From Nemophila menziesii (Eukaryota; Streptophyta; Magnoliopsida; Boraginales; Hydrophyllaceae), in contig JARWIR010000005.1 of assembly GCA_029959085.1 (NCBI GenBank), positions 34,713,350-34,777,349 of the forward strand: DNA of 64,000 bases, read 5' to 3'. The translations under genes were made by a program, and so were the position numbers. Positions 8,150 through 58,592 of the stretch are shown here, in pieces; position 1 is the stretch's first letter; each line of letters begins with the position of its first letter. Under the pieces are notes generated by a model that made no database searches, was not told the origin of the DNA, and saw nothing but the letters and a program-made list of their open reading frames with translations.

Positions 8150-8604
8150 TGTTACCTATGAATTAAAGAGTTAAGGTTTTAGACAAACCTCTTACGCAGC
8201 GGATTGATGATTTCTGAATTCTTACTTTCTTTAATTCTTGCTTTCTGATCGTGAACTTAATTACTAGAATTAAGCCCTTTGTTTTCACCACCTAAGAGTC
8301 TATGAATTTTGTCGTATAATGGAATAAGAGAAGGAATTTTTGCTGAAGAATTTTTGTGTGTTGTGAAGCTGTATTGAAGATGGAGTAGGAGACTCCTATT
8401 TATAGAGTTCATGAAGCGTTGGTTTATTAACTGATAATAAACCACCTTCCCATTATCTCCACCCCAAGCACTATCTTAGTGGGTAAGTTATTTCAGTTAA
8501 ACCCAGGTAACTTCCTTACTAACTTCCCAGAGTACGTGCATGTCAAACCCATCATGGGTGACATGGAAATAAAATTAATATATTAATTTATTTTATTTCT
8601 TTCA
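8150..8604 (-). repeat. E1 3' LTR
   Basis: Starts TGTTACCTATGAATT and ends TTTCTTTCA. Pairs with 15162-15609. On the minus strand the preceding bases TAGTGGGAGAA form the polypurine tract. Confidence 0.95.
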
Positions 8605-8615
8605 TTCTCCCACTA
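8605..8615 (-). other. E1 polypurine tract
   Basis: Minus strand TAGTGGGAGAA abuts the 3' LTR; it primes plus-strand DNA synthesis. The same tract occurs in E2. Confidence 0.75.
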
Positions 8616-9750
8616 GCACATGATGGGGTTACCATCATACTATTACGTGCATCACAATGTTCCATACATCAAAATTTCTCAAAATTCTCTCATATACACA
8701 CTACTACAATAATTCATCATACTTGACATATAGGTCGTGCGACCGACAAGCATACGAGCATATGTTACTATTAACCTGTTAGGGTACATAGTTGCTCAAA
8801 TGAAATCTCATTCCTTACGTATCTTGTAGTACCCCAGACTAACAATATGTTGTATCACATTACAGTAACTCTGACCCATTCAAATATATATCACAACTTC
8901 TGTGTGAAAAAAAGTTCACTATCATTTCGTTTATATGTCTCACTATCATGTTATAGTCCGTATTGATTTACATGATCGGTTAACCTGCAAGCACACATTT
9001 GATACACAATTCTAGTCTTCCCTTTACACTTATATCCTTTTATATTGATTAGGTTGCTTTCCCAAACATACCCCATTAGACCGAATCACTCATGATCATT
9101 GGTAATGTGTTCAAATTAGCATACACCTAATCAAAATATCAAGATATAGTCAAAAGTAATAAGGGCACAAATCAAAGGCATCACACAGTGAAGAAACATG
9201 GATCAATTCTTCACTTTCTTTTGGTCGAAAGCACACGTGGTATGACAAACGTGTTATGGTATTATTCATATATCTCAAACTGTATGTCACAATTTTACAA
9301 ATACCATACAAATATATAATTAGACAAGTCTCGTTGCCTAAGATGAATTCTTCGATCGATCAACCCTTCTATGAAATCAATCAAGCAACTCATATCTGGC
9401 TATTATAGACTAAGTAGATAGTGGGATTCTACTTCGATCATAATATAAGCTTAACATGGTTTATCCATGTTTATGATCTTATCTTAACACTTAGTTAAGG
9501 CGACTATCTTAACTCAAGTTATCTTAAGGGTTCTTCACTACTATGAGTTAGTCTCATCTTTGCGCACTTTTTATGCCAAAGGCGATTGCCCGTGTGACAG
9601 GGCCAATCTCAGTCTATAGGACATACATACTTACAAAATCACACGCAATATAATATATATCAAACATGATACTATTAAAATAAAAATTAAATAAACATAC
9701 TAATGGAAATATATACATAGAATGCACATAAACTAGCAATAATTCGTACA
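8616..9750 (-). other. E1 1.1-kb non-coding region between pol and 3' LTR
   Basis: No ORF survives here, yet the sequence is colinear and highly similar to the equivalent stretch of E2 (16439-17603), with almost the same length. Its similarity looks as high as that of the pol region. It may contain packaging or 3'-end signals, or a long-dead gene; no domain recognised. Confidence 0.7.
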
Positions 9751-11402: not shown

Positions 11403-13799
11403 TTAAGAATCTTGAGAAATGGGATTACTAGATGATGCAATTGTTTCTTCCGTCTCAAGATGCAAAGGAGTGTCCGTCTCTATTTCTTGAGTATGTGTTA
11501 CCTCATCAGGTGTCACATTTGTTTGCATATCATCTTCCTGAATCTCATTTAATTCACATAAAATGGAATTTCTGTCAACCTCACCTCTGCTAGGAAATTC
11601 ATTCTCTAAGAATGTAACATCTCGTGACTCAATTTCTGTAAGACCCCCATCGTTATGTTCACCAATAAAAACATATCCTTTAGATTGATCTGGGTATCTA
11701 ATAAAGATACACTTCTTGCCTCTTGGACCTAACTTCCCATACTTATGAGATAGATCATGAACATAACCTGCCGATCCCCAAGGTCGCAAGTATGACAGAT
11801 TAGGTTTCCTACCTGTCCATAGTTCATAAGGAGTTGATGGAATAGTCTTTGTGGGTACTCGGTTAAGTATATAACAGGCGGTAAGCAAGGCATCTCCCCA
11901 ATAAGATATTGGAAGATTTGCTTGTGCCATCATAGACCTAACCATTTCTAGGAGTGTTCTATTCCTCCTTTCAGCAACACCATTCTGTTGTGGTGTTCTA
12001 GGAATTGTAAGTTGCCTTACTATCCCTTTTTCATCACACAATTCTTTAAACTGATCAGATAGATATTCACGTCCTCGATCGGTTCTTAGGGTTTTCACCT
12101 TCTTCTCTAACTGATTTTCCACTTCATTGATAAATGTCATAAAACATTTCAATGCTTCGGATTTGTGAGAAATCAGGTAGACATAACAAAACCTAGTGAA
12201 ATCATCTATGAAAGTGATGAAATAACGTTCCCCACGTCTAGTTTGAACACTCATTGGGCCACAGATGTCTGAATGAATTACTTGTAATGGGTACTCGACT
12301 CGTTTAGTCTTTCCAAATGGTTTCCGTTTTGCTTTACCTGCTAGACAATTTTCACAAGTTGGCAAGTTGACTTTAGTCAACGAACCCAAAAGGTTCGCCT
12401 TAGCCAACAAATTCATACGTTCTTGACCAATATGACCTAATCTAGCATGCCATACATTTTCTTCTACATTAGAATAACTAGAAGAAGAAGTATTAGTAGA
12501 AAAGCAACAACTTAAACAATAACTATTAAACGAGTTATCATCATCTAGTACAATTAAACCATGCGAAATAAAACCAGAACCATAATACGTAGCATCATAA
12601 TAGATATCTACTTGTTTGTTATGAAAATGCAAATTAAAACCTAATCCTAGAAGAACAGTGACCGAGACTAAGTTCCGTCGAATGTCAGGTGCGTAAAGTA
12701 CATCATGCAGGTACAAGGTTTGACCACCTCGCAAGTTCAACTTGCAAGTTCCAACTCCTTTGACTTCAACCTTATTGTTGTCTCCTACATATATCCACCT
12801 TGATCCCTCTGGAATCCGACGGTACTCTACATATGCCTCTCGGTCTTTGGCTACATGGTCTGTCGCTCCTGAGTCCACAGTCCACAAAGGATTAGAATCA
12901 ACAAGCAATACAGTACTGGTAACATAAGTAAAATTACAAGAAGTAAATGACATTGCTACCTTTCTGGGCTCGCTGCACTCGCGAGCGAAGTGACCCATTT
13001 TATCACAGTTAAAGCATTTCATCTTACTCTTGTCTTTCTTCTTACGGAAACGTTTTTCCTTATTGTTACCACCCTTCTTGTTCTTCTTGGAAACATGCTC
13101 ATTTCCGTTCTTCTTCCCATTGTTCTTGCGCTTATTTCCAGAAACTTTGTGGGAACTTGACTCAGCAACATAAGCCTGGCCTTGAGGCTTAATTGCATCT
13201 AGACGTTCATCTTCCAATGTCACATGACGAGCAGCATCATCAAAGGTTTTGATGTTGTCATTGTGAGTCAAGTTTATCTTCAAATGCTTCCAGTTATTTG
13301 GAAGAGATCGGATCACAGCTTGAACCTGTTGTTCATCAGTAAGGTTTTGACCAGCATTCTTAAGTTCCCTAATCATGTTAGACATCTCTCGGAGATGTTG
13401 TTGCATGATTTCATTAGGCTTCTTCTTGCAAGTGTCAAACTTAATGGTCAATTGATGCAACTTAGTCACATTCGTACCCCCATACTTCTCCTTAAGAGCA
13501 TTCCACATTTCGTGAGCAGTGAGGTATCGTTGACATTCATAGACAAGATCGTCATTCATGGAGCCTATCAAGATGCCTCTTGTAGTGGAATCTTTCTTTT
13601 TACACTTCTCATAAGCCTCCATGTCCCTTCTGTTTTGAGCTGTGTTGCCTTCCTCAGGCTGAGCCATGACATTGTTAACAGCCTCAAGAACATCTTGCTC
13701 TTCTAGAACATAGTGTATCTTGAGCTTCCAAAGGTTATAGTTCTCACCATTCATCTTTTCTCCTTTGTTGAGATCAGCAATGATGGTTTTCGATGCCAT
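11403..13799 (-). pseudogene. E1 gag, protease, integrase segment
   Basis: 798 codons from MASKTII to the premature stop. Gag has the UBN2/DUF4219-like N-terminus (GENYNLWKLKIHYVLEEQ), the EMWNALKEKYGG block, a basic Lys/Asn-rich stretch and one CCHC knuckle. Then come protease (DSGATDH), the GAG-pre-integrase zinc-binding HxxxH..CxxC block and the integrase core. The acidic linker before RT ends at the TAA. Confidence 0.9.
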
Positions 13800-14208
13800 T
13801 TTCTCTATAAAGTAAGAGATTTCCATTAATATCATACATTTATTTAACAACTCTATGCTATTAATGCAAACAGAATGAATAAAAAAGATAACAAAATAAG
13901 TGATAAAGAAAGTTCACTATGTTCCCAATCATGAACCACTATAGTTTGTTTGTCTTAATCATTCAATCAATTTCATTAACTGCAAAATTAAGTTCTTCAA
14001 GAACTCTCACTTACTCTAACATGAATAGAGCAAAATGTATGAAAACTAAATAACTAATAACATAAAAGCAAATAATCTAGTTGAATTCATACATAAATGA
14101 AAAAACATGTTTGGTAAACAAATAACCAAATAAAATCAAAGACTAACATTTGAAACGAACTACCAAAATAAACTACCTAGCAAAGAAGCTCTAACTTATA
14201 CATGACAA

Positions 14209-14766
14209 TCACTCGTATCCCGTTTTCAAAGGAATCAATTTTTCAAAACCCTCTTTTACATAGAGACTTATCGGATCATACTTAGTAGGCGAATTCATCT
14301 CACAAGGACATTTGAAAAAATTTGTATGCCTTTTAAAATGATTCCACATATGAGATTCAGTGAAGGCATATACGACCCAACCATATGTTTTTGATCTCCT
14401 ATCTACATAATTTTCGGGATTCACATTCCTCCATAGATCAAGGAGATCTTTACTCAAGTCTTTCGGCAAAGTCCTGAGAAGGGCATCAATCTTGTCATTC
14501 TCATTCATGCGATATGCATATTTTATGACACTTTGTATAATATCATTTACAATCTTCACGTGTTGTATTAAAGAATGTGATGATTTCATCTTATAATTTC
14601 GAAGTGTCATTATTTTATTTTTCAAATCTTCCCTTTGTCCATCTGACTCGGGCTCTTTGGCGGTGTAGACCAATGTCCAATTCTTTATGTTCTTGTGATC
14701 GGTCCTGTAGTTCATCAACAGGTCGCGTCTAAATGCACGTAATCCTCGGAATTGTGTAATCACCAT
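14209..14766 (-). CDS. E1 additional ORF upstream of gag (185 aa), unknown function
   Basis: Open frame in the element's sense orientation, between the primer-binding site and gag. The start is ATG at 14764-14766, because E2's homologue starts at the same place with MV(I/L)T..RG.RA. It is homologous to E2 21899-22474. Shared blocks are QHVxIVN..IQ.VI, a KxxxLxxxLPxxxxxD segment, PENYV..R, TYxWxVYAxTESHxWxH and CxCxM. No signal peptide, membrane segment or known enzyme motif; basic N-terminus. It is not gag, which follows separately with its own zinc knuckle. I do not recognise the family. An RNA-binding, silencing-suppressor or particle-accessory role would be speculation. Confidence 0.8.
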   Translation of the reverse strand: MVITQFRGLRAFRRDLLMNYRTDHKNIKNWTLVYTAKEPESDGQREDLKNKIMTLRNYKMKSSHSLIQHVKIVNDIIQSVIKYAYRMNENDKIDALLRTLPKDLSKDLLDLWRNVNPENYVDRRSKTYGWVVYAFTESHMWNHFKRHTNFFKCPCEMNSPTKYDPISLYVKEGFEKLIPLKTGYE

Positions 14767-14875
14767 TTTTCTCTATAGAAAAAATTAAGAATAAAAAAAA
14801 TTCACCACCTTTTGAAAATAATACATTTTTGAACTACGTTATAAGTTCATCATATATTCTTTTTAACTAAAAACA

Positions 14876-14947
14876 AATTGTATAGATCAAGTGGTTACGT
14901 TATTAGTCTTTAGTAATGTTGGTCAGGGTTTGAATCCCTTTACAAAC
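14876..14947 (+). other. tRNA-like sequence antisense in E1 leader
   Basis: A-box-like TAGATCAAGTGG (14883-14894), an anticodon-arm-like stem-loop (about 14900-14918) and B-box-like GGTTTGAATCC (14927-14937; one mismatch to the consensus). Spacing is that of a tRNA gene. It is on the plus strand, opposite to the element, and the same position in E2 holds a better-preserved copy. Degenerate tRNA-derived segment. Confidence 0.6.
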
Positions 14948-15147
14948 ATTTAGATTTTATTTGGTCCGAAAAATTAAAATAAATAAAAATTAATTAAATA
15001 AAGGAACTTACTTATACAATCAACAAAAAAAATCAAAAACAATTTTCTTTTCTTTTCTCGACAGAAAAAAAATCCAACTAATTTTTTTTTTAATGAATCG
15101 TATTGAAAACACAGAAGAGGAAGCAAAGAATTATTCAGGTAACAAAT

Positions 15148-15159
15148 GCTCTGATACCA
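15148..15159 (-). other. E1 primer-binding site (tRNA-iMet)
   Basis: Minus strand TGGTATCAGAGC, two bases inside the 5' LTR. Confidence 0.93.
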
Positions 15160-15161
15160 AT

Positions 15162-15609
15162 TGTTACCTATTAATTAAAGAGTTAGGGTTTTAGACAAAT
15201 CTCTTACGCAGCGGATTGATGATTTCTGAATTCTTACTTTCTTTAATTCTTGCTTTCTGATCGTGAACTTAATTACTAGAATTAATCCCTTTGTTTTCAC
15301 CGCCTAAGAGTCTATGAATTTTGTCGTATAATGGAAAAAGAGAAGAAATTTTCGCTGAAGAATTTTTGTATGCTGTGAAGCTGTATTGAATATGGAGTAG
15401 GAGACTTCTATTTATAGAGTTCAGGAAGCGTTGGTTTATTAAATGATAATAAACCACCTTCCCATGATCTCCACCCCAAGCACTATCTTAGTGGGTAAGT
15501 TCTTTCAGTTAAACCCGGGTAACTTCCTGACTAACTTTACGTTCATGTCAAACCCATCATGGGTGACATGGAAATAAAATTAATATATTAATTTATTTTA
15601 TTTCTTTCA
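15162..15609 (-). repeat. E1 5' LTR with TATA box
   Basis: 448 bp, TG...CA, matching 8150-8604. On the minus strand CTATAAATAG at 15408-15417 is a good TATA box for the genomic transcript. Transcription would run toward lower coordinates through the extra ORF first. Confidence 0.93.
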
Positions 15610-15614
15610 ATATG

Positions 15615-15981
15615 TGAGAAGGTGCTCACCATGATATTGTAAAAGTTTGCAATTTTAGAAGTTTGCTCTCAGCACGATGATTGAGTCATGAGTGTTGAAT
15701 TGTTTAATAATCAGCCTCAGAATTCCTTTAGATTTGACTAATTAATATCTCTATTACTGCAGGTAAATTTACAGCATTCTTATCAATATTAAATTTATTC
15801 AAGACCTTAATTACAATACAAGGTAGAAAGTAGAATCTCAAACCTGAAATATTAGAGATACAAGAAAAAAGCAAACTTTTGACAAAAAAATAAAAATAAA
15901 TAAATGGCTCAAAAAGAAAAACACATACATCATTATTATCATCCTCATCAGCTCACTATCATCATCATTGGGTATTATTAC
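15615..15981. repeat. unit A segment 2: 3' flank of DC1-A displaced by E2
   Basis: Continues the unit B alignment (29888-30236). It contains what was the last codons and 3' untranslated region of DC1-A before E2 inserted: its right end, GGGTATTATTAC (positions 15970-15981), corresponds to the terminal codons of the gene. It lies between E1 and E2, about 7.6 kb from the gene it belonged to. Confidence 0.88.
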
Positions 15982-16438
15982 TGTTACACTTAAATAATAA
16001 TACAAGAAGGTTTATCAGACAAACCTTATACGCAGCGGATTGGAATGAAGAGTCCTGAATTTAGCCTTCTTATAGTTGATTGAATTGGAATGAAGGAATT
16101 GCTTCTCTGGTCGTAAGTTTAATTACTAGAACTAAACTTTTTGTTTTCACAACCTAAATGTCTCAGAATTATTTGTGTTGATTTGGAGAGAAAAGAAAGG
16201 TACGCTTATTAATAAGCTTTGATTGTGTTGCTGTTGTGTTGTTGTTTTTGTGAGAAAGAGAGGCTCTATTTATAGAGCTGGAGAGTTGGTTTATTAGCTG
16301 TTAATAAACCACTCTCCCACTTTCTCCACTTCCTCCACCATCAAAGTGGGAAGTTATCAAAGATAACTTCCCTGTACGCTCATGTCTTTCCCATCATGGG
16401 TGGCATGGGAATAAAAACCTTTTTTTTTATTTCTTTCA
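15982..16438 (-). repeat. E2 3' LTR
   Basis: 457 bp, starts TGTTACACTTAAATAAT and ends TTTCTTTCA; near-identical partner at 23182-23637. The minus-strand polypurine tract GAGTGGGAGAA lies immediately next to it (16439-16449). Confidence 0.95.
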
Positions 16439-16449
16439 TTCTCCCACTC

Positions 16450-17603
16450 GCACATGATGGAGTTACAATCATTCCCTTTAGGAACATGCATTTCAATGCA
16501 CCATACATCAATATTTCTCAAATCTCCTCATATACACATTTCTAGAATAATTCATCATACTTGACAAAATAGGTCGTGCGACCGACAAGCATACGAGCAT
16601 ACGTTACTAATAACCTGTTAGGGTACATAGTTGCTCAAATGAAACTTCATTCCTTACGTATCTTGTAGTACCCCAGACTAATAATTTATTGTATCATATT
16701 CAGTAACTCTGACCCCTTTAAATTTATATCACATCGTTTATGTGATTAAAAGAGTTCACTGACATAACTTCATGTGTCTCACTATCATGTTATGGTCCAA
16801 ATTGACTTACATGATCGGTACCTGCAAGCACACACTTTGATACAGAATTTTAGTCTTCCCTTTACACTTATATCCTTTTACGTTGATTAGGTTGCTTTCC
16901 CAAACATACCCCATTAGACCGAATCATTCATGATCATTAGTAGTATGTTCAAAGTAGCATACACCTAATCAAAATATCAAGACATAGTCAAAAGTAATAA
17001 GGGCACAATTTTGAAGGCATCACACAATGAAGAGACAGGGATCGACTCTTCACTTCCTTCTGGTCGAAAGCACACGTGGTATGACACACGTGTTATGGTA
17101 TTATTCATATATAGCTCCAATTGTATGTCACAATTTTATAAATACCATACAGATATATAATTAGACAAGCTTCGTTGCCTAAGATGAATTCTTCGATTGA
17201 TCAACCCTTCTATGAAATCAATCAAGCAACTCATATCTGGCTCTTATAGACTAAGTAGATAGTGGGATTCTACTTCGATCATAATATAAGCTTAACATGG
17301 TTTATCCATGTTTATGATCTCATCTTAACACTTTAGTTAAGGCGACTATCTTAACTCAAGTTATCTTAAGGGTTCTTCACTACTATGAGTTAGTCTCATC
17401 TTTGCGCACTTCTTATGCCAAAGGCGATTGCCCGTGTGATAGGGCCAATCTCAGTCTATAGGACATACATACTTCAAAAAATTACACGCATTATAATATA
17501 TATCTAACATGATATTATTAAAATAAACAGTTAAATAAACATACTAATGAAAATATATATATGAATGCACATAAACTCGCAATATTCATACATTATATCT
17601 TGC
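16450..17603 (-). other. E2 non-coding region between pol and 3' LTR
   Basis: Counterpart of E1 8616-9750, colinear and similar throughout, without coding capacity. Confidence 0.7.
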
Positions 17604-20600
17604 TTAATCATATAGATTTAACATATCCATAAATATATCCCTTGGGATATCCTTTGTGAATGGATCAGCAAGCATATTGCGTGTGTGTATGTATTGCAAA
17701 TCAACATCCTTTTGTGCAATAATATCTCTAACAACGTTATACTTTATATCAATGTGTTTGGTCATACTGTGATACTTAGGAGCTTTCACACAAGCCTTTT
17801 CAGCTTGACTATCACAATGTATAATAACGGGACTCCCACTATCGCCTGAGAATCCTAAATGTTCATAATAACCTTTTTAACCAAACAGCCTCTGGAACCA
17901 CAGCTAAGCATGCTACAAACTCAGCTTCCATTGTGGACAAAAATTATACAGGTTTGTTTCTTGCTACTTCAAGAAATTGCGCAATTATTCAACATGAATA
18001 CATCACCTGAGGTAGATTTACCCCCATATATATCACTATCCCAAATAGCGTAATATATCCTTCTAGGTGTAATCTATTTCCTCGAAAGCAAAGGCATAAT
18101 CCATAGTGCCTTTTAGATATCTCAATATCTTTTTCACAACTTTCGGATTTTCTTGTCCTGGGTTCAATTAAAATGACTAACTAAATCTACCACATAACAT
18201 ATGTCTGGCCTAATTCACATCATAACATATATAAGACTATCCATGAACTAAAATATGACACTGTATACATTTTCTATTTTCTCTTCTGGAGTACTAGGAC
18301 ACTTGTCGAGATTTAAGTTTATTCCATTTTCTACAGGAGTGTCAATGGTATTGCACTTAGTCATGCTAAACCGCTCAATTATATTCATGATTTAAGGTTC
18401 TTGAGACAAAGATAATAGTCCTCTAGACCTATCTCTACTAATCTTAACACCAAGAATATAATTTGCTTCTCCCATATATTTCATATAACATTGAGAAGCT
18501 AGCTACTCCTTATTAGCTTGAATAAACTCTTTATCATCCCCTGCTAATCGGATGTCATCTACATATAGAGATAAGATCACAAAATTTCTTGGAACATTAA
18601 ACATTAACACAGTGATTTTCACTTATCATCTCAAATCCATTTGATGAAATGACTTCATGAAATCTCAAATTCCACTGTCTCGAGGCTTGATTAAGATCAT
18701 ATATTGATTTTAACAATCTACATACTTTATTCTCTTGATCTTTTGTAACGAAACCCGAGGGTTGTTCCATGAAAATAACATTTTCTAAATCTCCATTTAG
18801 AAATGTAGTTTTAACATCCATTTGGTGCAACTCCAGATCGAGATGCGCCACAATAGCTAAAAATAAGACGTATTGAGGTAAATCTAACAACAGGAGAAAA
18901 AATTTCCTCAAAAACTATTCCTTCCCATTGAGTAGAGCCTTTCGCTACCAAGCGAGCTTTATACTTTTCAATGGAATTGTCAGGTTTCCTCTTTATTTTA
19001 AGAACCCATTTATTCCCTTACGTCTTTTCGGGAGATTAACCAGTTCCCATACCTGGTTTTTCTTTATCGACTCCATATCTTCTTCCATTGCCTTCTTCCA
19101 TTAATTCTTAGCAGGACATGAGAATGCTTCATTAACTGATCGAGGTTCTTCTTCGTCTTGTGGAGTTATCATAAGGACTTTTCCTTTGATTTCAAATCGA
19201 CGACGAGGAACTAAACCTCTAGCACTTCTCTTAAGTTGAGAATCCTGAGAAATAGGATTACTAGATGATGCAATGGTTTCTTCCATCTCAAGATTTAGAG
19301 GAGTGTCTGTCTCTATTTCTTGAGTATGTGTTACCTCATTAGGTGTTACATTTGTTTGCATTAATTCACATAAAATAGAATTTCTGTCAACTTCACCTCT
19401 GCTGGGAAAATCATTCTCTAAGAATGTAACATATCGTAACTCAATTTCAGTGAGACCCCCATCGTTATGTTCACCAATAAACACATATCCTTTAGAGTGA
19501 GCTGGGTATCTTATAAAGATACACTTCTTACCTCTTGGACCTAACTTCCCATATTTATGAGATAGATCATGAACATAGTCTGCCGACCCTAGGGTCACAA
19601 GTAGTTCATAAGGAGTTTGATGGAACAGTCATTGTGGGTATTTGGTTAAGTATATAACTAACAGTAGGCAAGACATCTCCACAGATTAGCTTGTGCCATC
19701 ATAGACTTAACCATTTCTAGGAGAGTTCTCACTTTTCATCACACAGTTCTTTCAACTGATCCAATAGATATTCACGTGATTAAGGTTTTCATTTTCCTCT
19801 CTAACTGATTCTCTACTTCATTGAAATATATCATAAGAAAATTTCAATGCTACAGATGTATAAAAAATCAGGTAGACATAACCAAAACTAGTGAAATTAT
19901 CTATAAAAATGATAAAATAAAGTCCCCCCTGTATATTTTGAACATTCATTGGGTCACAGATGTCTACATGAATTACTTGCAATGGGTACTCGACTCGTTT
20001 AGCCTTTTCAAAAATGGTTTCCCTTTGCTTTATCTGCTAGACAATTTTCATAAGTTGGCAAGTTGACTCTAGTCAATGAACCCAAAAAAAATTTGCCTTA
20101 CCCAACAAATTCATACGGTCTTGTCCAATATGAATTAGTCTAGCATTCCATACTTTTCTTCTACGTTAAAATTATTAGAAGAAGTATTAGTAGAAAAGCA
20201 ACTACTTACATAATAACTATTAAATGAGTTATCATCATCTAGTACTACTAAAAAATGAGAAATAAAACCAAAAACTTAACACTTAGCGTTATAATAGATG
20301 TCTACTTGATTGTTATGAAAATGCATATTAAAACTTAATCCTAGAAGAACAATGACCAAGACCAAATTTCTTCGAATTTCAAGTGTGTAGAGTGCATTAT
20401 GCAGTTATAAGGTTTGATCACCTCGCAAGTTCAACTTGCAAGTGTCAAATCTGTTGACTTCAACCTTGTTGTTGTCTCCTACCTCATATCCATCACGTTT
20501 CCTTTGGAATTAGATGGTACTCTATATATGCCTCTTGGTCTTAGGCTACATGGTCTGTCACTTCTGAATCCACAATCCACAAAGGATTAGAATCAACTAG

Positions 20601-21470
20601 CAAACAGTACTGGTAACATATGTAAAGTTATATGAAGTAAATGATATTTCTATCTTCATCCTCACTCGCGAGCGAAGTGACCTATCTTGTCACAATTATA
20701 GCATTTTACTTTACTCTCGTCTTTCTTAAAAAAAACGTTGTTACCACCATTCTTGTTCTTCTTGGAAGCATGCTCATTTTCGTTTCTCTTCCCACTGTTC
20801 TTGTACTTAATGCCAGAACCTTTGTGGGAACTTGACTCGGCAATATATAAGTCTGTTCCTAAGACTTAACTGCATCAAGACGTTCATCTTCCAACGTCAT
20901 ATGATGAGCAACATCATCAAAAAGTTATGATATGGTCATTTTGAGTCAAGTTTATCTTCAAATGCTCCCACTTATTTGAAAAAGATTGGATCATAGCTTG
21001 AATCTGATGTTCATCAACAAGGTTATGACCTGCCGTCCAAGTTCCCTAATCATATTAGACATCTCCCAAAGATGCTTGGTTTGATTAGGCTTCCTCTTGT
21101 AAGTGTCAAACTTAATGATCAATTGACTCATCTTAGTCATAGTTGTACCCTTATACTTTTCATTAAGAGCGTCCCACATCTCATGAGCGGTGGTGTATTA
21201 TTGACACTCATGGATAAGATCGTCATATATGGAGCTTATCAAGAGGCCTCTTGTAGTGGAATATCTCTTTTTCCACTTCTCATAAGCCTCCATGCCCCTT
21301 TCGTTTTGAGCTGTGATGCCTTCCTTAAGCTGAGCCATGACATTGTTAATAATATCAAGAATTCTTGTTCCTCTAGAACATAATGTATTTTGAGTTTACC
21401 AGGGTATAGTTCTCACCATTCATTATGTCTCCTTTGGGATCATCAATGACAGTTGTCATTTTCTTATAAA
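17604..21470 (-). pseudogene. E2 gag-pol remnant
   Basis: Same domain order as E1 but no frame longer than about 165 codons. Recognisable pieces: RNase H terminus 17604-17789 (NMLADPFTKDIPRDIF), RT 18597-18911 (LHQMDVKTTFLNGDLE, RLLKSIYDLNQASRQ), integrase tail and linker 19101-19598, gag 20991-21179 (MSQLIIKFDTYKRKPNQ). Integrase is further damaged by deletions around 19590-19760. Cannot make protease, integrase or RT. Where E1 carries stop codons, E2 retains the sense codons, so the two decayed independently. Confidence 0.93.
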
Positions 21471-21898
21471 GTAAGAGATTTTTCATTAGTATACATACAA
21501 TTATTTAACTACCCAATGCTATTAATGCAAATAGAATGAATAAGAAAGATAACAAAATAAGTGATAAAGAAAGTTCACTATGTTCCCAATCATGAACCAC
21601 CATATTTTGTTTGTTTTAATGATTCAATCAATTTCATTAACTGCAAAAATAAGTTCTCCAAGAACTCCCACTTACTCTAACATAACTAGAGTGAAAATGT
21701 ATGAATATAAACAACTAATAACATAAAAAAACAAAGAAACTAGTTGAATTCATACATAAATGAAATACATGTTCAATAAAGCAATAACTTAATCAAAGCA
21801 ACTAATGCAATTCCTAACAAACAGGGATTAAAAAAAAATTGGAAAAAACAAACCACTAAGCAAACTACCTATTGCAAGTCCTAACTAGCATACGCCTT

Positions 21899-22474
21899 TC
21901 ATATCCAAAACCTTAATTTAGGAATTGACTGCTCAAAGTTCACTTCCTCATAGAGTCTAATTGGAAAATAATTATCAATACTAGTAGTTCGATAATGCAT
22001 TCCACAGTTGCACTGATCCGACCTAGTGGAACTATTATAGTGCCTCCACAAGTGAGATTCAGTCAAAGCATAGACTAGCCACTCATATGTAGCTTGTCTC
22101 CCATGAACATAGTTCTCCGGAAAATCATACTCCCATAAGATTTCGATATCCCTCTTCATCTCTCTTGGTAGAGATTTGTAAAGAACTTCAACCTTATGTC
22201 CTTCACATATGATATCACCCCAATTTATGACATCCTGAATCAACCTATTGACAATTGCCACATGTTGCACTAGGGTGTGATGAGGTTTCTTCTTATAACG
22301 GAGTGCTTTGATACTATTTCTCAAAGACTGTTTTTCTTTCGGTGTCCTTGCAACTTTTGGTCTATGGATCTCTGATGATCCATTAGGATTTCTTACGTTC
22401 CTGTTGAGCCATCTGTACACTGTCAGTTGCTCAAGCCTTGCTGCTCGTGATCCCCTGGATCGTGTCAACACCAT
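21899..22474 (-). CDS. E2 additional ORF upstream of gag (191 aa), intact
   Basis: Uninterrupted frame from ATG 22472-22474 (MVLTRSRGSRAARLEQL) in the position equivalent to E1 14209-14766. Shared blocks with the E1 protein: QHVAIVN.LIQDVI, LP...KRDIEILW, PENYVHGR, TYEWLVYALTESHLWRH, CNCGM and PIRLYEEVNFEQSIP. The last few residues are in a different frame from E1 (here FWI, there GYE), so one of them has a terminal frameshift. It is the only intact frame in E2. Strongly basic N-terminal region with many Arg. Family unknown to me; function not assignable. Confidence 0.8.
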   Translation of the reverse strand: MVLTRSRGSRAARLEQLTVYRWLNRNVRNPNGSSEIHRPKVARTPKEKQSLRNSIKALRYKKKPHHTLVQHVAIVNRLIQDVINWGDIICEGHKVEVLYKSLPREMKRDIEILWEYDFPENYVHGRQATYEWLVYALTESHLWRHYNSSTRSDQCNCGMHYRTTSIDNYFPIRLYEEVNFEQSIPKLRFWI

Positions 22475-22589
22475 TTTTCTACATATAGAAAAAAAAATTA
22501 AGAACGGTAAAAAAATAATACACCAAAATTGATATAGGAAACAAGGAAAAATAATAATAGTATCTTTCCAAAAACTCTATTCATTAACA

Positions 22590-22662
22590 ATAACCTAAGG
22601 TAGTAAAATTGGTAAGGCTGCTAGTCACCTAACTAGGTGGTTTGGGTTCGAATCCCCTCACA
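22590..22662 (+). other. tRNA-like sequence antisense in E2 leader
   Basis: A box TAGTAAAATTGG (22601-22612) fits the consensus TRGYNNANNNGG. B box GGTTCGAATCC (22645-22655) is a perfect match. Between them is a stem-loop CTAG...CTAG in the anticodon-arm position. It lies about 115 bp from the extra ORF start, as in E1, and on the strand opposite to the element. Could drive Pol III transcription toward the 5' LTR; no terminator was verified. Confidence 0.65.
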
Positions 22663-23167
22663 TTCATCTTGATTTTCTTAAATAAAATTAGGCCCGAAAA
22701 ATATTTTTAAAAAAATCCGGCGGTTCAAAAAAAAAACCGGTCCAGTCAAGCCTAAAAAAATAATACGGTGGCCCAAAATTATATAGAAAATTGGCCCATG
22801 AATATACTTGATAAAAAATTCGGCCCAAAATTAATCCAGAAAAAATTGGTCCAAAAAATATTTAATTCAAGGCCCAACCTAGCAATATTATTAGTCTAGG
22901 GAAAAGATATGGGCTACCTAATATGGCTGTGGCCCAACATTATAACCTAACATATATCGACAAAAAAAAAATTCTAACAAATCAAAGCTATAAGCTATTT
23001 CTTTTCTTCTTCTACTTCTATTGTTCGACAGAATAAAAAAAACTTTTCTTAAACTTTTTTCTTTTCTCTCGACAGAAGCAAAAAAAAATTCTCAATAATT
23101 TTTTTTCGACAAAAAAAATGCTCAATTTTTTTTTTCATACATTCAATTGGGTAACATTGGGTAACAT

Positions 23168-23179
23168 GCTCTGATACCA
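23168..23179 (-). other. E2 primer-binding site (tRNA-iMet)
   Basis: Minus strand TGGTATCAGAGC two bases from the LTR. Confidence 0.93.
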
Positions 23180-23181
23180 AT

Positions 23182-23637
23182 TGTTACACTTAAATAATAA
23201 TACAAGAAGGTTTATCAGACAAACCTTATACGCAGCAGATTGGAATGAAGAGTCATGAATTTAGCCTTCTTATAGTTGATTGAATTGGAATGAAGGAATT
23301 GCTTCTCTGGTCGTAAGTTTAATTACTAGAACTAAACTTTTTGTTTTCACAACCTAAATGTCTCAGAATTATTTGTGTTGATTTGGAGAGAAAAGAAAGG
23401 TACGCTTATTAATAAGCTTTGATTGTGTTGCTGTTGTGTTGTTGTTTTTGTGAGAAAGAGAGGCTCTATTTATAGAGCTGGAGAGTTGGTTTATTAGCTG
23501 TTAATAAACCACTCTCCCACTTTCTCCACTTCCTCCACCATCAAAGTGGGAAGTTATCAAAGATAACTTCCCTGTACGCTCATGTCTTTCCCATCATGGG
23601 TGGCATGGGAATAAAAACCTTTTTTTTATTTCTTTCA
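23182..23637 (-). repeat. E2 5' LTR
   Basis: 456 bp, near-identical to 15982-16438. TATA box CTATAAATAG on the minus strand (23466-23475). Its first three minus-strand bases, TGA, serve as stop codon of the interrupted DC1-A gene. Confidence 0.95.
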
Positions 23638-25468
23638 ATTACCATCAGTAGGACTAACAATCTTACGAGCACATAGATAACATAGGCTGAAATAGCAAGT
23701 TTCACATGCGAAGGCTGTCTTTCCTTTCAAATCAACATCACATTTGTCACAACAGAAGTTATGTTTAACCTTCCTCGTGAATTTAAGAGGATGTGAGTGG
23801 GAATCAATTTGAATTTCAACCCCAAATTTCATATTGCGTGAGATGCCAATCCTAGGAATGCAATTCGCATGAAATGAATGGTTGCATTCACGACAATGAT
23901 ATATACGGTACTTTGGATTACATACTTTTTCACACATTTCGCAAGTAATTTCATCTGGATGATAATCAAATGGTGGAAAGCTGAGGATAAGAGGGTGTTT
24001 ATCACAACTATGTCCCACATTTTTAGGTAACGTTGCGCATCTCACTCCCAGTTTGTATTTTAACTTCTCAGGACAAGTCTTGCAATGGAAGAAGATACCT
24101 TTTTCAGTATTTCTACAGGCATCACAAACCTCTTCAGAAGCAGATTCACCTCGAATAAGTAGGTGTTGATGATCTTCATATTTTATGGTACTAGGAAGAA
24201 GAGCACATCGTATGTCTAACGCAAATTGACACTCCACACATGCATACATGAATCCATTGCAAGGAAGATTACAACTATTGCATGCGAAAGGGCTGAAAAT
24301 TTTATCTTGGCGAAAATAGAAGGAGAGTCTATGTTGGGGATGAAAAGAAGATGATAACTCTTTGGGTAACCGAGCACAATCTTCATGGATGAAGTAGTTG
24401 CATTGAGCACAAGTGTAACATGAACCCGAAATAGGTTCCACACAACCACTGCACATGGTTTCCTGATCATCTTCCATAGATTCGTAAGACTCATCTTGGA
24501 CACTGGAGAGAATCAAAGGGTGCTTATGGCTAAAATGTTCCATTTCAGGTGATAGTTCAACTAGTGGGAGCTTATTTTGCTCCAAAAAATGTCTGATCAG
24601 CACTGAGGGTAAGTTCTGCACGGGCACTCTAATCACTGCTGGACTGATTTCCTCAGTAATTCTAATAATCAGTGTGATGTGATTATTAGATAGATGCAAC
24701 CTTATTAAATACATAGACAAATAAACCTATATTAAAGCTGAAAATAAAGAGAAAGAAATCTTACAAATTAGGCTCATAAGAGGCCATGCAGTTGAGATGA
24801 ACGAAGTATCGACAGAGGGCACAGTAATAGACCCAATAACTATTATGCAGGTGGTCATGACATATATCACAGTTTAGTCCGTAACGTTTGTATTCTTGTG
24901 GAAAAGAATAAGCTAGGGTGAGAGGGTGAGGGTGAACCTTTAAGGACAAGTAATTGTTTGACATTGATCCACAGGTTTTGTGAATCCAAAATGGGCACAC
25001 AGTGCAATCATACGGCTCATCTTTTCCCTCTACGCCACAAGCATCACATGGAAACAGGACACTTTTTGGTTGGATTTTTAAAGGGTGGTGGTGACCCGGG
25101 TGTTCCAACGTCCTCTCTAATTGAGAACACAAAATATCTACATCAAACTCACATGTTTTGCATTGATATGTGAAACCATTCCACAATCTTTTACAGACAT
25201 TGCATATACATCTTCCTCCTATATGAGACGGTTTAACAAAGAGTTGAAGTGGGTGTTGCGGATGCATTATATTTGTAATCTCCATTGGTAGTTCAGCACA
25301 TGATTTGTGGAGGAAGACTTTACATTTGCTGCAACTGTACATTGTTGACCCAGAGGAGACTGCTTCTTTACAACCGTAACACTCAACTTTCTCCCCTTCC
25401 ACATCCACTACTTGCATTTCATTGATGAGTACAAGCGGATGCTCGTGGCTAAAATGCTTGATCTTCAT
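23635..25468 (-). CDS. DC1-A: cysteine/histidine-rich C1 domain protein, two exons
   Basis: Two-exon gene on the minus strand. Exon 1 is 25468-24765, exon 2 24661-23635. The intron of about 103 bp begins GTAAGA and ends TTATTAG, and joining gives the continuous frame ..EPN-L-ITEEIS. The start is MKIKHFSHEHPLVL as in the other two copies; the upstream ATG at 25507 depends on a 1-bp difference. The protein of about 575 residues has nine DC1-like units (H..HPL, CxxC, CxxC, HxxC), four in exon 1 and five in exon 2. DC1 modules bind zinc and are plant-specific; some members act in stress or defence signalling. E2 inserted after codon GGTAAT: the LTR supplies TGA and removes only the last three residues (compare ..NSTQ in unit B). 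The native 3' UTR is now beyond E2, so the message must end in the LTR or in E2. Confidence 0.88.
24662..24764 (-). other. DC1-A intron
   Basis: Donor GTAAGA and acceptor TTATTAG on the minus strand; phase-compatible with both exons, and the same sites are present in DC1-C (47285-47197). Inferred, not shown by transcripts. Confidence 0.7.
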
Positions 25469-29392: not shown

Positions 29393-32300
29393 AGAGGAGC
29401 TAATACTTAGGTTTTGGGGCAACCTTGGGCGGGGCTGTAGGCCAGATCCATTCCTAGACATTTGACAAAAATGGGATAGATATGGACGTTGGGAGTAGTG
29501 ATGGCAACGCAAAATCAGATGCATAAAAAGTATCTGAAGTTGCTGTTGTGGTTTCATGAACCTTAGGGATTATTGTTTGCTGATTTAGTTCCAAATCTTC
29601 AACTTTTAGTAAAATTTATCGATACAAATATACATATGAACAGTGATGGGTTGTTTAAATAGAGCATTCCCATGAAAATTCTAGTATGAAATTTTGGAGG
29701 TGCAGGAAGTGAATAATGAATAATACATACAACATATAACTTTTTTGTAAAACGGCTTGAGCGGAAGTAGCATGACGTGTATAATGGGGTGCTCGAGGTC
29801 TATTTACAAGAGTGTGGATAAAGTCATTTTTATCAACTCTCTACCATTATGAGAAGTGAAAATTCTAAATGTTATATTAGATATGTGGGACGTAGAAGGT
29901 ACTCACCATGATATTGTAAAAATTTGCAATTTTAAAAGTTTGCTCTCAGCACGATGATTGAGTCATGAGTGCTGAATAGTTTATTAATCAGCCTCAGAAT
30001 TCCTTTAGATTTGACTAATTAATATCTCTACCTGTAGGTAAATTTGGAGCATTCTTATCAATAGTAAATTTAATCAAGACCTTAATTACAATACAAGGTG
30101 GAAATTAGAATCTCAAACCTGAAATATTAGAGAGACAAGAAAAAAGCAAACTTTTGACAAAAAAAAGAAAAACACATATATCATCATTATCGTTCTCATC
30201 AGCTCACTATCACCATCATTGGGTACTATTACCATCAGTAGAACTAACAATCTTATGAGCACATGGAAAACATAGGCTGAAATAGCAAGTTTCACATGCG
30301 AAGGCTACCTCTCCTTTCAAATCAACATCACATTTGTCACAACAGAAGTTATGTTTAACCTTCCTTGTGAATTTGAGAGGATGTGAGTGATAGTCGATTT
30401 GAATCTTACCCCTCGCATTCATGCCAAACCTCTTCGGAAGCAGATTCACCTCGAACAAGTAGGTGTTGATGATCTTCAACTACTGGGAGCTTATTTTGCT
30501 CCAAGAAATGTGTGATCAGCACTGAAGATAAGTTCTGCGCAGGCACTCTGATCACTGTTGGACTGATCTCCTCAGTAATTCTTATAATCAAAGAGTGTAA
30601 TGTGATTATTAGATAGATGCAAATTAAAAGAGGATAACGACTCAACCCAATTATATGAGTAATGATATATTATATATACCACCCAAGCATAAATATATCT
30701 GCAACCTTATTAAATACATATACAAATAAACCTATATTAAAGCAGAAAAGAAAGAGAAAGAAATCTTACAAATTAGGCTCATAAGAGGCCATGCAGTTGA
30801 GATGAACGAAGTATCGACATAGGGCACAGTAATAGACCCAATAACAATGATGCAGCTTGTCATGACAAATATCACATTTTAGTTTGTAACGTTTGTATTC
30901 TTTTGGAAAAGAATAAGCTAAGGTGAGTGGGTGAGGGTGAACATTTAACGACAAGTAATTGTTTGTCATTGATCCACATGTTTTGTGAATCCAAAATGGG
31001 CACACAGTGCAATAGTACGACTCATCTTTCTTCTCTACGCCACAAGCATCACATGGAAACAGGACACTTTTTGGTTGAATTTTGAAAGGGTGGTGGTGAC
31101 CCGGGTGTTCTAACGTGCTGGCTAACTGTGAACACGAAATATCCACATCAAACTGACACGTTTTGCAGTGATATGTGAAACCATTCCTCAACCTTTTACA
31201 GACATTGCATATACAGCTTCCTCCATAATAAAACGGTTTGGCCAAGAGTTGGAGTGGGTGTTGCGGATGCATTATATATGTAATCTCCATCGGTAGTTCA
31301 GCACATGATTTGTGGAGGAAGACTTTACATTTGCTGCAACTGTACATTGTTGACCCAGAGGAGACTGCTTCTTTACAACCGTAACACTCAACTTTCTCCG
31401 CTTCCACATCCACTACTTGCATTTCATTGATGAGTACAAGCGGATGCTCGTGGCTAAAATGCTTGATCTTCATCCCACAAACAATTTAAATGATTTTTTT
31501 TGTTTGGACAATAAAACAATATAAATGATTTGAAGATTTGCAATCTGTTGAGGGCCTAGAATCTAAATATATATAAAACAAAAAGACAAAGTGTTGAACA
31601 AGCTAGGGTGAGTATCAGAAAAATTCTTTGTCCACCAAGTGATACTACCACTTGTACATAACTATTCTAATTTTGCTTTCAAAGTGTTTTTTTAAATAGA
31701 AGACATATATCAAAGTGTTGATTATGTCCTTACAAGTAAAGCATTGGCCCGTCCCTTAAGCATTGATATGGTTAAGTAAGAATAGATCTTGTATATACCA
31801 CACATCGAATCTCAGGATGCAACATATTGTACACTTAAATCACGATTTTTAGGATGTCTATTTAATTAACAATTTGTAGATTTTTTTTTTGGATTTATCA
31901 AATTGTTTTTTTTTTACTTTGTACACAACTCCCCCAATGTTCTCTAAATCTAGGACAATTATACCCTCATGTACACTAATAAAATATAATTAATTTTATA
32001 TTCAACGCAATCCACTCTCAAAGAAACAAAAAACTCAATAAAAAATTATTGATAATAATGAATATAAAGGTAAAACCTCCGACGGAAAACCCCTTTCCGG
32101 CGAAATCCATCGGTAAAAGTGATAACCCACCCAAACAATCATCCCGACACACTCAACAACACAATATGATGAGTCGATGGAACTAGAACGCTAGAGCCTA
32201 GTGAAAGAAGGTAAACCCCCGATGAAAAATACGTTTCCGAACGAAACCCCGTGTTAAGGGATATAGCCCACCTAAGCGTACATGTCAGTACAATAAAAAA

Positions 32301-33654: not shown

Positions 33655-35010
33655 GATAATTCCCAACTAATTACAATTCCTCATTTTTCCTTCCTAAAAA
33701 AAAGGAAGGAGAAAATTACTTCATACTTACTCACAAATTTTCAACTTAATTCCCAATTAAACACATTGTCATATTTACCTTCCAATGTTGCCCTTATGTG
33801 ATTTTTTAATTTTATTTTTTAAAATTATTTTTAATATTTTTTTAATTTTTTTTTTCAGATTATTTTAAAAAAAAATTCGAGATTTTTTTTCCCAATTTTT
33901 TTTTTTCAATTTTCTTTTTAAATCGAAATTTCGGATTATGTGTTGCTGCAACACATAAATATAGATTTATGTGTTCATGTAACACATAAAGTCATAAAAT
34001 CGATCTAAATGATTCTTTTCTTTAACAAAATTGTTTTTTTCTATTTATTACTGGCATATACCCTATTTTTATTCGTCTTTAACTATCTTGATATATTATC
34101 TTTTTGACCAACACTTTATTTTTATTTTTGTGTGTTTATGTTTTAGGGTTTTGTGTGTTCCAGGTCACTGAAAACTTGATTTTGTTTATTCCAATTCTGT
34201 GTATTCGTGGAACACACAAATCTCAGAATTGTGTATTCTTAGAACGCACAAATATAAGATTTGTGTATTCACGGAACACACAAATCTCTAATTTGTGTAT
34301 TCATAGAACACATAAAAATCGAATTTATGTATTCCTAGAATACACAAAACTTGATTTTCTTTGTTCCAATTCTGTGTATTTCTGAAACACACAAATCTCA
34401 GGTTTGTGCATTCCTGGAACACACAAATCTCAGATTTGTGCATTCATGGAACACACAAATCTTGTGTATTCATGGAACACATAAATAATCAAATTTGTGT
34501 ATTCATGTAATACACAAAACTTGATTTTGTTTGTTTCAATTATGTGTATTCCTAAACACACAAATCGTAAAATTGTGTATTCCTGGAACACACAAATCAT
34601 AGATTTGTGTATTCATGGAACACATAAAACTCAAATTTGTGTAGTCTTGGAATACAAAAAACTTGATTTTGGTTGTTCCAATTTTGTGTGGTCCTGCAAC
34701 ACACAAATCTTAGAATTGTGTATTCAGGGAACACATTTAAAAAAATCCGGGAAAAAAATTTCGGGGAAAACAATTTCGGGGAAAACAATTTCGAAAAAAA
34801 AATAATTCAAAAAAAAATTTGAAATTAGAAAGTCGGAAAAAAATTTAAAAAAAAAAGATAAATATAAATTAAAAATAAATAAATATTATTATAATTAAAG
34901 TAATTGATTAATTGTCTATGAGTATTTTTGTAATCTTCCATTTTATTGTAATTAAATAGGAATTAAGTTGAAGTTGTAATTAGTTGAGAATTTTTACACT
35001 CTCCGTATTA
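33655..35010. mobile_element. second foldback element with hairpin minisatellite core
   Basis: The outer parts are imperfect inverted repeats: CAACTAATTACAATTCCTC and CAACTTAATTCCCAATTAAA (about 33670-33765) against TAGGAATTAAGTTGAAG and TGTAATTAGTTGAGAA (about 34955-34995). AT-rich arms lead to a central array at 34190-34735. It is non-coding; the ORFs are by-products of the array. It has the same architecture as 2978-3708 but unrelated sequence. Confidence 0.6.
34190..34735. repeat. palindromic minisatellite, units of about 40 bp
   Basis: About a dozen variable units of the form TTTGTGTATTC(A/C)TGGAACACACAAATCTCAGA. Within each unit TTTGTGT pairs with ACACAAA, so each can form a hairpin; larger spans can also fold. 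Unit length varies and some units are decayed. Confidence 0.85.
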
Positions 35011-46157: not shown

Positions 46158-47989
46158 TCATTGGGTAGTATCATCACCATCACTGGAACTAACAATCTTA
46201 GAAGCACATTGACAACATATGGTGAAAGAGCAAGTTTCACATACAAAGGCAGTCTTTCCTTTCATATCAACATCACATTTGTCACAACAGAAGTTATGTT
46301 TAACCTTCCTCGTGAATTTAAGAGGATGTGAGTGAGAATCAATTTGAATTTCAGCCCCAAATTTCGTATTACGTGAGATTCCAATCCTAGGAATGCAATT
46401 CGCATGAAATGAATGGTTGCATTCACGACAATGATATATACGGTACTTTGGATGACATTCTTTTTCACACATGTCACAAGTAATTTTATTTGGATGATAA
46501 TCAAATGGTGGAAAACTGAGGATAAGTGGGTGTGTATCAGATCTATGTCCCACATTCTTAGGTAACATTGCACATCTCATTCCCAGTTTGAATTTTAAAT
46601 TCTTAGGACAAGTCTTGCAATGGTAGAAGATACCTTTTTCAATGATTGTACAAGCATCACAAACCTCCTCAGAAGCCGATTCACCTCGAACAAGTATGTG
46701 TTGATGATCTTCATATTTTATGGTACTAGGAAGAAGAGCACATCTTAAGTCTAACGCAAATTCACAATCAAAACATGCATACATGAATCCATTACAACCA
46801 ATATCACAACTGCTGCATCGGAAAGGGCTTAAAAATTTATCTAGGTTGAAATAGAAGGAGAGTCTATGTTGGGGATGAAAATAAGATGATAAATCTTTGG
46901 GTAATCGAGCACAATCTTCATGGATAAAGTAGTTGCATTGAGCACAAGTGTAACATGAACCCGAAATGGGTTCCACACAACCATTGCACACTGTTTCATG
47001 ATCATCTTCCATTAATTCGTAAGACTCATCTTGGACATTGGAGAGAATCAAAGGGTGCTTATGGCTAAAATGTTCCAATTCTGGTGATAGTTCAACTAGT
47101 GGGAGGTTATTTTGCTCCAAAAAATGTCTGATCAGTACTGAAGATAAGTTCTGCGCAGGCACTCTGATCACATCTGGACTGATCTCCTCATTAATTCTAA
47201 TAATCAAAGAGTGTATGGGATTATTAGATAGATGCAAATTAAAAGAAAAAAAACCTTTCAAAATAAATAAATTAATAAATCTTACAAGTTAGGTTTATAA
47301 GAGGTCATGCAGTTGAGATGGATGAAGTATCGACATAGGGCACAGTAATAGACCCAAGTGCTTGGATGGAGCTTGTAATGACAGATATCACATTTTAGTC
47401 CGTAACGTTTGTATTCTTGTGGAAAAGAATAAGCTAGGGTAAGTGGGTGAGGGTGAACATTTAACGACAAGTAATTGTTTGTCATTGATCCACATGTTTT
47501 GTGAATCCAGAATTGGCACACAGTACAATCATACGACTCATCTTTCTTCTCTACGCCACAAGCATCACATTTAAACAGGACACTTCTTGGTTGGATTTTT
47601 AAGAGGTGTGGATGACTTGGGTGTTCTAACGTGCTCGCTAACTGAGAACACATAATATCCACATCAAACTCACACGTTTTGCAATGATATGTGAAACCAT
47701 TCCAATCTCTTTGACAAATATTGCATATACATTCTCCTCCTTTATAAGACGGTTTGGCTAAGAGTTGAAGTGGGTGTTGAGAATGCATTGGATGAGTAAT
47801 CTCGATCGGTAGTTCAGCACATGATTTGTGGAGAAAGACTTTACATTTGCTGCAACTGTACATTGTTGACCCTGAGGAGACTGCTTCTTTACAACCGTGA
47901 CACTCAAATTTCTCCCCTTCCACATCCACTTGCATTTCATCGATGAGTACAAGCGGATGCTCCTCATGGCTAAAATGCTTGATCTTCAT
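46158..47989 (-). CDS. DC1-C: cysteine/histidine-rich C1 domain protein, two exons, intact
   Basis: Exon 1 is 47989-47286 and exon 2 47196-46158, intron about 89 bp (donor GTAAGA, acceptor TTATTAG), joining ..KPN-L-INEEIS in frame. Start MKIKHFSHEEHPLVL, about 580 residues, native end SSSDGDDTTQ. It has nine DC1-like zinc-binding units, four in exon 1 and five in exon 2, the last being HSHPLKFTRKVKHNFCCDKC. No signal peptide or membrane segment. It is the only copy with its own 3' end undisturbed. DC1 proteins are plant-specific, with roles in stress and development reported for some members; the specific job of this one is unknown. A 44-codon ORF-only alternative splice cannot be excluded. 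Confidence 0.9.
47197..47285 (-). other. DC1-C intron
   Basis: GTAAGA...TTATTAG on the minus strand, phase-compatible, same position as in DC1-A. Internal sequence differs from DC1-A in length and content. Confidence 0.7.
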
Positions 47990-53294: not shown

Positions 53295-53295
53295 A

Positions 53296-53309
53296 TCTCC
53301 CCCTTTTTG
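53296..53309 (-). other. E3 polypurine tract
   Basis: Minus strand AAAAAGGGGGAGAT beside the 3' LTR; highly characteristic of Sireviruses. Confidence 0.9.
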
Positions 53310-53650
53310 ATGTTTGACAAATCATAAACTTTTGAAGATGCCTAAGATTAAGTTTTGATCAAAAACTCCCCCTCAACCTAATCACTAGAGTTTTTATAAA
53401 AACTCCCCCTCACAAAATGCATTTGAAAAAGTTTAACTAAAATTTCTCCCCCTTTGTCAACAACAAAAAGAGCAAATGATACGATTTTGAAAATAGTAAG
53501 GGGTCAAAACACATTTTGAGTAAAAAACAAGGACCAAAGGAATAAATGGATAACAATTAGAAGCTTCAAAGAACCTATAAAATCAAGAAAATATTAGCAA
53601 CAAGAGAATATACACAAAGAGCACTAAACAACAATGGCAAGATACTAAGG

Positions 53651-56727: not shown

Positions 56728-56748
56728 TCCCTACATACAAAAAATAAT

Positions 56749-58539: not shown

Positions 58540-58580
58540 ATCGTATTAACTCTAGAAACGATTAAGTACAATAGAGCTAG

Positions 58581-58592
58581 GCTCTGATACCA
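58581..58592 (-). other. E3 primer-binding site (tRNA-iMet)
   Basis: Minus strand TGGTATCAGAGC, two bases inside the 5' LTR. Confidence 0.95.

Follow-up and report, generated by a model that had tools for sequence, protein, structure and literature searches.

Why do two copia retrotransposons carry an additional open reading frame (ORF) ahead of gag, and what does this frame encode? The question arises in a 64,000-nucleotide stretch of the Nemophila menziesii genome (GenBank assembly GCA_029959085.1, contig JARWIR010000005.1, positions 34,713,350 to 34,777,349; hereafter the window, numbered from its first letter), which contains two complete copia insertions, E1 and E2, on its minus strand. 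In each of them the stretch from the primer-binding site to gag contains an extra ORF (xORF), sense to the element. Here we report that this ORF is, judged by its sequence, a stand-alone, diverged paralogue of the C-terminal domain (CTD) of the copia Gag capsid, which lacks a zinc knuckle and the greater part of the N-terminal domain (NTD) and has a basic extension at its N-terminus. The two frames are as follows.

14209 to 14766, minus strand, start at 14766: extra ORF of E1 (xORF1), 185 codons plus stop, from the ORF list
21899 to 22474, minus strand, start at 22474: extra ORF of E2 (xORF2), 191 codons plus stop, from the ORF list

An earlier note on this DNA had claimed both frames with these lengths, this orientation, and this placement, and the coordinates confirm them. 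The two proteins align nearly end to end with 40% identity (E = 6e-44 in a single comparison), and the ordered motifs listed in the note (QHVxIVN, PENYV, TYxWxVYAxTESHxWxH, and CxCxM) are invariant between them. The note had also proposed that the absence of the ORF from other members of the lineage would speak against a conserved protein. Instead, each ORF type is present in the 1.5-Gb genome in at least 150 copies of full or almost full length. We scored the best 150 of 1587 candidates for xORF1 and the best 150 of 1836 for xORF2, and all 150 matches to each query were of full length or nearly so. By hand count, internal stops were present in 27/150 xORF1-type copies (123 being stop-free) and in 19/150 xORF2-type copies. 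A blind 210-kb sample of the genome contained no copy of the extra ORF. Two E2-type copies, in which the extra ORF begins with MMET and the DNA is 93-95% identical to E2, perhaps form a sub-group.

The relationship to gag was examined with a profile hidden Markov model (HMM) built from 53 relatives, with E1 left out, and the relevant part of E1 is given below.

11403 to 13799, minus strand: open gag-protease-integrase frame of E1, gag start at 13799 (ORFs, Pfam, tblastn)
13287 to 13556, minus strand: E1 gag residues 82-171, the part homologous to the extra ORFs (profile alignment; xORF2 matches positions 119-170)

The gag HMM scored the two ORFs at 26.4 and 21.7 bits, compared with 10.1 bits for the best of 4000 shuffles. 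Among 215 segments of the six-frame translation of the window, only gag-derived frames and the two ORFs exceeded 5 bits, and the best non-gag segment reached 4.8. Residues 13-105 of xORF1 align with profile positions 82-171, and xORF2 aligns with positions 119-170. A tblastn comparison with E1 gag gave the same register, with 30% identity over 50 residues for xORF2. The same register was found when the Pfam family Retrotran_gag_2 was matched to xORF1 (E = 4.6e-4), at 20.1 bits against a gathering score of 27; because the gathering score was missed, we call the ORF a diverged paralogue and not a Pfam-level member. When a profile of the two ORFs was compared with PDB sequences, the top two of the five matches were the Copia capsid (E = 0.004 and 0.013), which aligned over residues 99-151 (structures 8s41 and 8vvw). 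Pairwise shuffling against E1 gag gave z values of 6.0 and 8.5 for the two ORFs.

Several results weigh against this assignment. The Pfam scan found no gag match in xORF2, and hhalign gave a probability of just 8.5% for a two-sequence profile against gag. In the pairwise test, a reverse transcriptase (RT) segment used as a negative control gave z values of 3.4 and 4.9, under those of E1 gag, and shuffles against the two other gags of the window were signal-free (z from -1.3 to 2.0); we graded the HMM test as cleaner than the pairwise test. The AlphaFold models were weak, with a mean predicted local distance difference test (pLDDT) score of 53 and 52, and Foldseek returned no significant match for them (best E 0.59 and 1.4). 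In the structure prediction, which the earlier note had proposed, the helical part aligns with capsid domains, but in models of this low confidence.

14332 to 14649, minus strand: xORF1 residues 40-145, helical part aligning with capsid C-terminal domains (low-confidence model)
22028 to 22366, minus strand: xORF2 residues 37-149, part aligning with capsid folds (low-confidence model)

The homology does not extend over the whole of Gag, as the match is restricted to gag positions 82-171 and the zf-CCHC domain was absent from both ORFs in the Pfam scan. The note had foreseen that the frame might turn out to match a displaced part of gag. One half of this came true, in that the ORF is derived from the CA-CTD part of gag. 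The other half did not, since E1 has a gag frame 409 nt downstream of the ORF; this frame is still open, and we rejected a displaced piece of the element's own gag in favour of a paralogue. Of the database searches, which the note had suggested, the gag HMM detected both ORFs. When 5.8 billion proteins were searched with xORF1 or with an alignment of the two ORFs, no relative was seen, within the limited sensitivity of a method that needs shared 5-residue words. The same database does contain many plant gag-pol proteins. No relative of the extra ORF was found in viral contig or genome contig collections.

Comparison of the two ORFs supports well the view that purifying selection has acted on the protein between the two types. 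The divergence between xORF1 and xORF2 is 0.37, 0.375, and 0.53 at the first, second, and third codon positions, respectively, and is thus highest at the third. The NG86 method gave a nonsynonymous divergence (dN) of 0.50 and a synonymous divergence (dS) of 1.59, which is near saturation; dN/dS between the two types was 0.26-0.31. In a substitution-only neutral simulation over the same distance, both frames were open in 0 of 2000 runs. The argument of the earlier note that two diverged versions, both open, indicate selection is in line with these values. Among 20 E1-type copies compared with E1, dN/dS was 0.26-0.79, in a sample biased towards conservation because the copies were taken from a list ranked by protein similarity. 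For E1-type pairs, the pooled ratio was 0.37 at dS above 0.1, 0.51 at dS of 0.03-0.1, and 0.85 at dS below 0.03. The rise in close pairs suggests selection in the source lineages followed by drift after insertion, and 0.85 in very similar pairs is what dead-on-arrival copies should show.

Within the E2-type, purifying selection is moderately supported. In a first set of copies, the per-site frequency of shared nonsynonymous variants was one seventh of that of pseudogag variants (P = 1.4e-5). We place more trust in a weaker control sample, picked by a search with pseudogag DNA, in which 40 of 1316 candidates were scored and the ORF was taken from 12 of the 40. The ORF was present in 12/12 of these copies; 9/12 were stop-free, one had a single 6-nt deletion, and no frameshift was seen in the 12, compared with about 6.6 expected at the pseudogag rate (a rough hand count). 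Other observations tell against selection here. The first contrast was inflated, because its copies had been ranked by ORF similarity, and a stop occurred in 3/12 control copies. The nonsynonymous/synonymous ratio in the control was 0.58-0.60 (0.60 for 11 gap-free copies and E2, 57/454 vs 25/119, P = 0.027), shared variants alone gave no significant difference (P = 0.18), and shared nonsynonymous variants were not rarer than those of the pseudogag (0.051 vs 0.046 per site, P = 0.70). The dN/dS analysis over many copies, which the earlier note had proposed with a value near 1 as the unfavourable outcome, thus gave values below 1 for the E1-type set and the E2-type control, and a value approaching 1 in the closest E1-type pairs.

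The condition of gag differs between the two types. The ORF-to-gag stretch was studied in 10 other E2-type and 8 E1-type copies, whereas pol lesions and the age of the long terminal repeats (LTRs) were studied in E2 alone among the E2-type copies.

17600 to 21460, minus strand: E2 gag-pol remnant, with 29 frameshifts and 16 stops over 1182 aligned codons
23182 to 23637, minus strand: E2 5' LTR (LTR comparison)
15982 to 16438, minus strand: E2 3' LTR, 2 substitutions in 456 sites relative to the E2 5' LTR

The near identity of its LTRs indicates that E2 was inserted recently, about 0.17-0.31 million years ago at assumed rates. These rates predict about 1.3 disabling changes after insertion, compared with the 45 seen. 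Three gag lesions are common to 11/11 E2-type copies (E2 and the 10 others), and the other lesions covered are common to nearly all. As these lesions are shared by separate copies, gag died in a common ancestor, and the family kept multiplying. Thus, from the recent insertion of E2, its dead gag-pol, and the lesions shared by 10 other copies, we conclude that the E2-type is, by its sequence, a gag-dead non-autonomous copia family that retains the extra ORF. The earlier note had missed this point, namely that a dead gag was inherited in a family whose extra ORF is still open. Among the E1-type copies, the gag stretch was free of lesions in four, had one stop in two, and had several lesions in two. 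It counts against our interpretation that the autonomy of the E1-type was examined for gag only. E1 itself is not an intact element, because its pol is broken between integrase and RT and also within RT, with the RT part in other frames further down.

The extra ORF also appears to differ from gag-pol in its history. The identity between E1 and E2 is 69% in the LTR, 56% in the leader, and 58% (nucleotides) in the xORF, but 85-90% in gag-pol and 92% in the tail, about 1.1 kb long, that separates pol from the 3' LTR.

13800 to 14208, minus strand: spacer that separates xORF1 from gag, with an identity to E2 of about 82% (E1/E2 alignment)

In this spacer, the identity is about 60% in the first block after the ORF and climbs to 94% nearer gag, which marks a mosaic switch point. 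Because the change occurs inside the spacer just after the ORF, the xORF, the LTR, and the leader appear to travel as a single module, separate from that of gag-pol. The lower conservation of the xORF than of gag-pol is thus explained by E1 and E2 being mosaics of each other. The non-coding tail (8605-9750 in E1 and 16439-17590 in E2), which is more similar between the elements than gag-pol is, has no stop-free stretch longer than 81 codons in any frame.

Ahead of the ORF are many short upstream ATGs, 9 in E1 and 17 in E2 counted from the start of the 5' LTR. A candidate 3' splice site directly precedes the start codon in both elements.

14771 to 14792, minus strand: pyrimidine-rich tract with AG, resembling a 3' splice site, immediately ahead of the xORF1 start (first of 78 AGs by upstream T content)
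22478 to 22500, minus strand: pyrimidine-rich tract with AG, resembling a 3' splice site, immediately ahead of the xORF2 start (second of 111 AGs by upstream T content)

The AG before the xORF2 start is kept in 11/12 E2-type copies, and a comparable TATAG|AGAAAATGG is found before E1 gag. All these sites were judged by their likeness to the consensus. The BARE element produces a spliced Gag RNA (PMC3735527), and we infer that the leader of E1 and E2 may be alternatively spliced. A donor-like GTAAGT occurs in the ORF-gag spacer of both elements, at 14014 in E1 and 21675 in E2. The leaders also include a tRNA-like stretch (14871-14980 in E1 and 22586-22700 in E2), antisense to the element and by eye resembling a short interspersed element; it reads GGTTCGAATCCC in E2 and a variant thereof in E1. 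ARAGORN found no tRNA gene anywhere in the window, these stretches included. In 13700-23700, Rfam matched weakly at three places, in each case far under the gathering score and outside the extra ORFs and spacers.

What, then, might the protein do? Most probably it is an accessory capsid protein that would contact Gag through the CTD and either bring its own RNA into particles or, as p22 of yeast Ty1 does, limit assembly. We are evenly divided on the first of these, an accessory capsid gene whose product would help its own LTR-leader RNA into particles. The ORF would be translated from a leader-spliced transcript that uses the 3' splice site directly before the start codon, the protein would bind to Gag through the CTD-CTD interface as particles form, and RNAs with their own LTR-leader module would in this way be helped into particles. 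Such a role would explain why the ORF travels with the LTR and leader and not with gag-pol, and why E2-type elements, which need borrowed Gag, keep it. On the other side, a role as helper cannot be derived from the sequence, and we infer the expression, the splicing, and the contact with Gag. Its wider form is tentative and open to considerable doubt: plant copia elements would have evolved a second gene dedicated to the capsid, and a non-autonomous family that has lost working gag would be a parasite whose own capsid adaptor lets it enter, or bias, particles made by its autonomous partner.

The main rival, which we regard as unlikely, is a self-encoded restriction factor like p22/p18 of Ty1. 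The proposed way in which p22/p18 stop Ty1 is that a CTD without NTD enters the Gag lattice (PMC8458377), and a comparable xORF protein would stop lattice growth, so that transposition would fall as copy number rises; alternatively, such a contact could bring an RNA into the particle. The domain content suits this explanation. However, E2-type elements need borrowed Gag, and an inhibitor would slow their own spread, yet the ORF has been kept; p22 is identical to Gag, whereas xORF2 has just the 30% identity to the element's gag noted above. The high copy number speaks against strong restriction, and p22 chains are absent among the Foldseek matches listed for the E2 model. We favour helper function over restriction because the ORF was retained by a Gag-borrowing family and because it accompanies the leader.

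A clearly less probable explanation is that a gag-derived protein has left the capsid for another role, for example in countering silencing or in the nucleus. This would suit the low identity to gag, the loss of the zinc knuckle and most of the NTD, the basic character of the N-terminus (residues 1-36, with a pI of 10.95 in xORF1 and 11.88 in xORF2), and the C-terminal tail with the CxCxM motif common to both. In contrast, the best-conserved part is the CTD-like helical one, with 41/90 identical residues between xORF1 and xORF2 at residues 58-147 compared with 13/36 in the N-terminus and 14/38 in the C-terminal tail.

It is more improbable still that the ORF is a passive relic, that is, a fragment of gag duplicated into the leader and open by chance or through recent copying. 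The near-neutral ratio of the closest E1-type pairs, the stops among the top copies of both types, and the non-significant test of shared variants in the control sample are all as such a relic would show them. A relic would not, however, be expected to stay open in both types after deep divergence, to show the low between-type ratio (with dS near saturation), or to escape frameshifts in the control copies while gag decayed in the same family. Capture of a host gene, which has in its favour that most extra ORFs of plant elements are described as being of unknown origin (PMC7264820), was rejected as scarcely credible on the gag homology of both ORFs, and the word-limited protein search, in a database with many plant proteins, found no relative.

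The remaining features of the elements are those of complete copia insertions.

15162 to 15609, minus strand: E1 5' LTR (LTR comparison)
8150 to 8604, minus strand: E1 3' LTR, 19 substitutions in 448 sites relative to the E1 5' LTR
15148 to 15159, minus strand: E1 primer-binding site TGGTATCAGAGC (sequence)

Both elements have LTRs of the form TG...CA, a 5-bp target duplication (ATATG/ATATG for E1 and ATTAC/ATTAC for E2), the primer-binding site TGGTATCAGAGC, and the purine tract AGTGGGAGAA. The domain order gag, integrase, and RT-RNase H is that of Ty1/copia; in E1 the gag and integrase domains share one frame, and the downstream RT-RNase H frames are homologous to pol of the third copia element of the window. 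This element (52133-58893) has a gag of a different type and is probably a very recent insertion, since its ends are identical at 300/300 bases and its frames are long and open. A Cys/His-rich gene region, by eye DC1-like, occurs in three diverged copies (23635-25468, 30228-31473, and 46158-47989), the first of which adjoins E2. The tandem array at 34173-34742 is short and has a 32-base step, with longer spacings in places.

Extra ORFs are frequent in plant elements, and those at the 5' end are not in themselves new. Additional ORFs between the LTR and gag are known in Tekay (gypsy) elements (PMC11728184), and forward 5' extra ORFs (eORFs) form a class in the REXdb survey (PMC6317226); the xORFs of E1 and E2 resemble both in position and orientation. 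That survey counted only ORFs of at least 250 codons, excluded elements in which one domain occurred several times, and named for copia the 3' eORF of SIRE as the characteristic one (PMC6317226). The xORFs, with 185 and 191 codons and derived from gag, differ from such eORFs, and the cut-off together with the removal of repeated-domain elements would have made the survey miss them. More generally, surveys with long cut-offs and a repeated-domain filter can miss such genes. The earlier note knew of no described extra 5' ORF in this type of copia element, and our literature search (open-access, mostly titles and the starts of abstracts) likewise found no plant copia element described as having a gag-derived ORF ahead of gag.

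In our judgement, a separate, conserved capsid-domain gene kept by a gag-dead family offers a concrete protein for testing the selection of non-autonomous plant retrotransposons for packaging, and a possible self-limitation of plant elements as in yeast Ty1. The closest parallel is p22/p18 of Saccharomyces Ty1, where a capsid CTD without NTD also exists besides full Gag in a Ty1/copia-type element (PMC8458377, PMC4599808), although for the xORF this likeness is one of sequence. p22 is made within the same gag and is identical to its C-terminal half, whereas the xORF is a separate, diverged gene upstream. Compared with copia Gag (Retrotran_gag_2/UBN2), the xORFs are homologous over the profile positions given above but have N- and C-terminal tails of their own. 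With respect to mobility, BARE2 (PMC3735527) and Tos17 (PMC3977881) are reported to move without their own Gag, as the E2-type does, and TR-GAG elements keep the GAG domain only (PMC11728184). The E2-type differs from these in that it keeps a second, gag-derived ORF.
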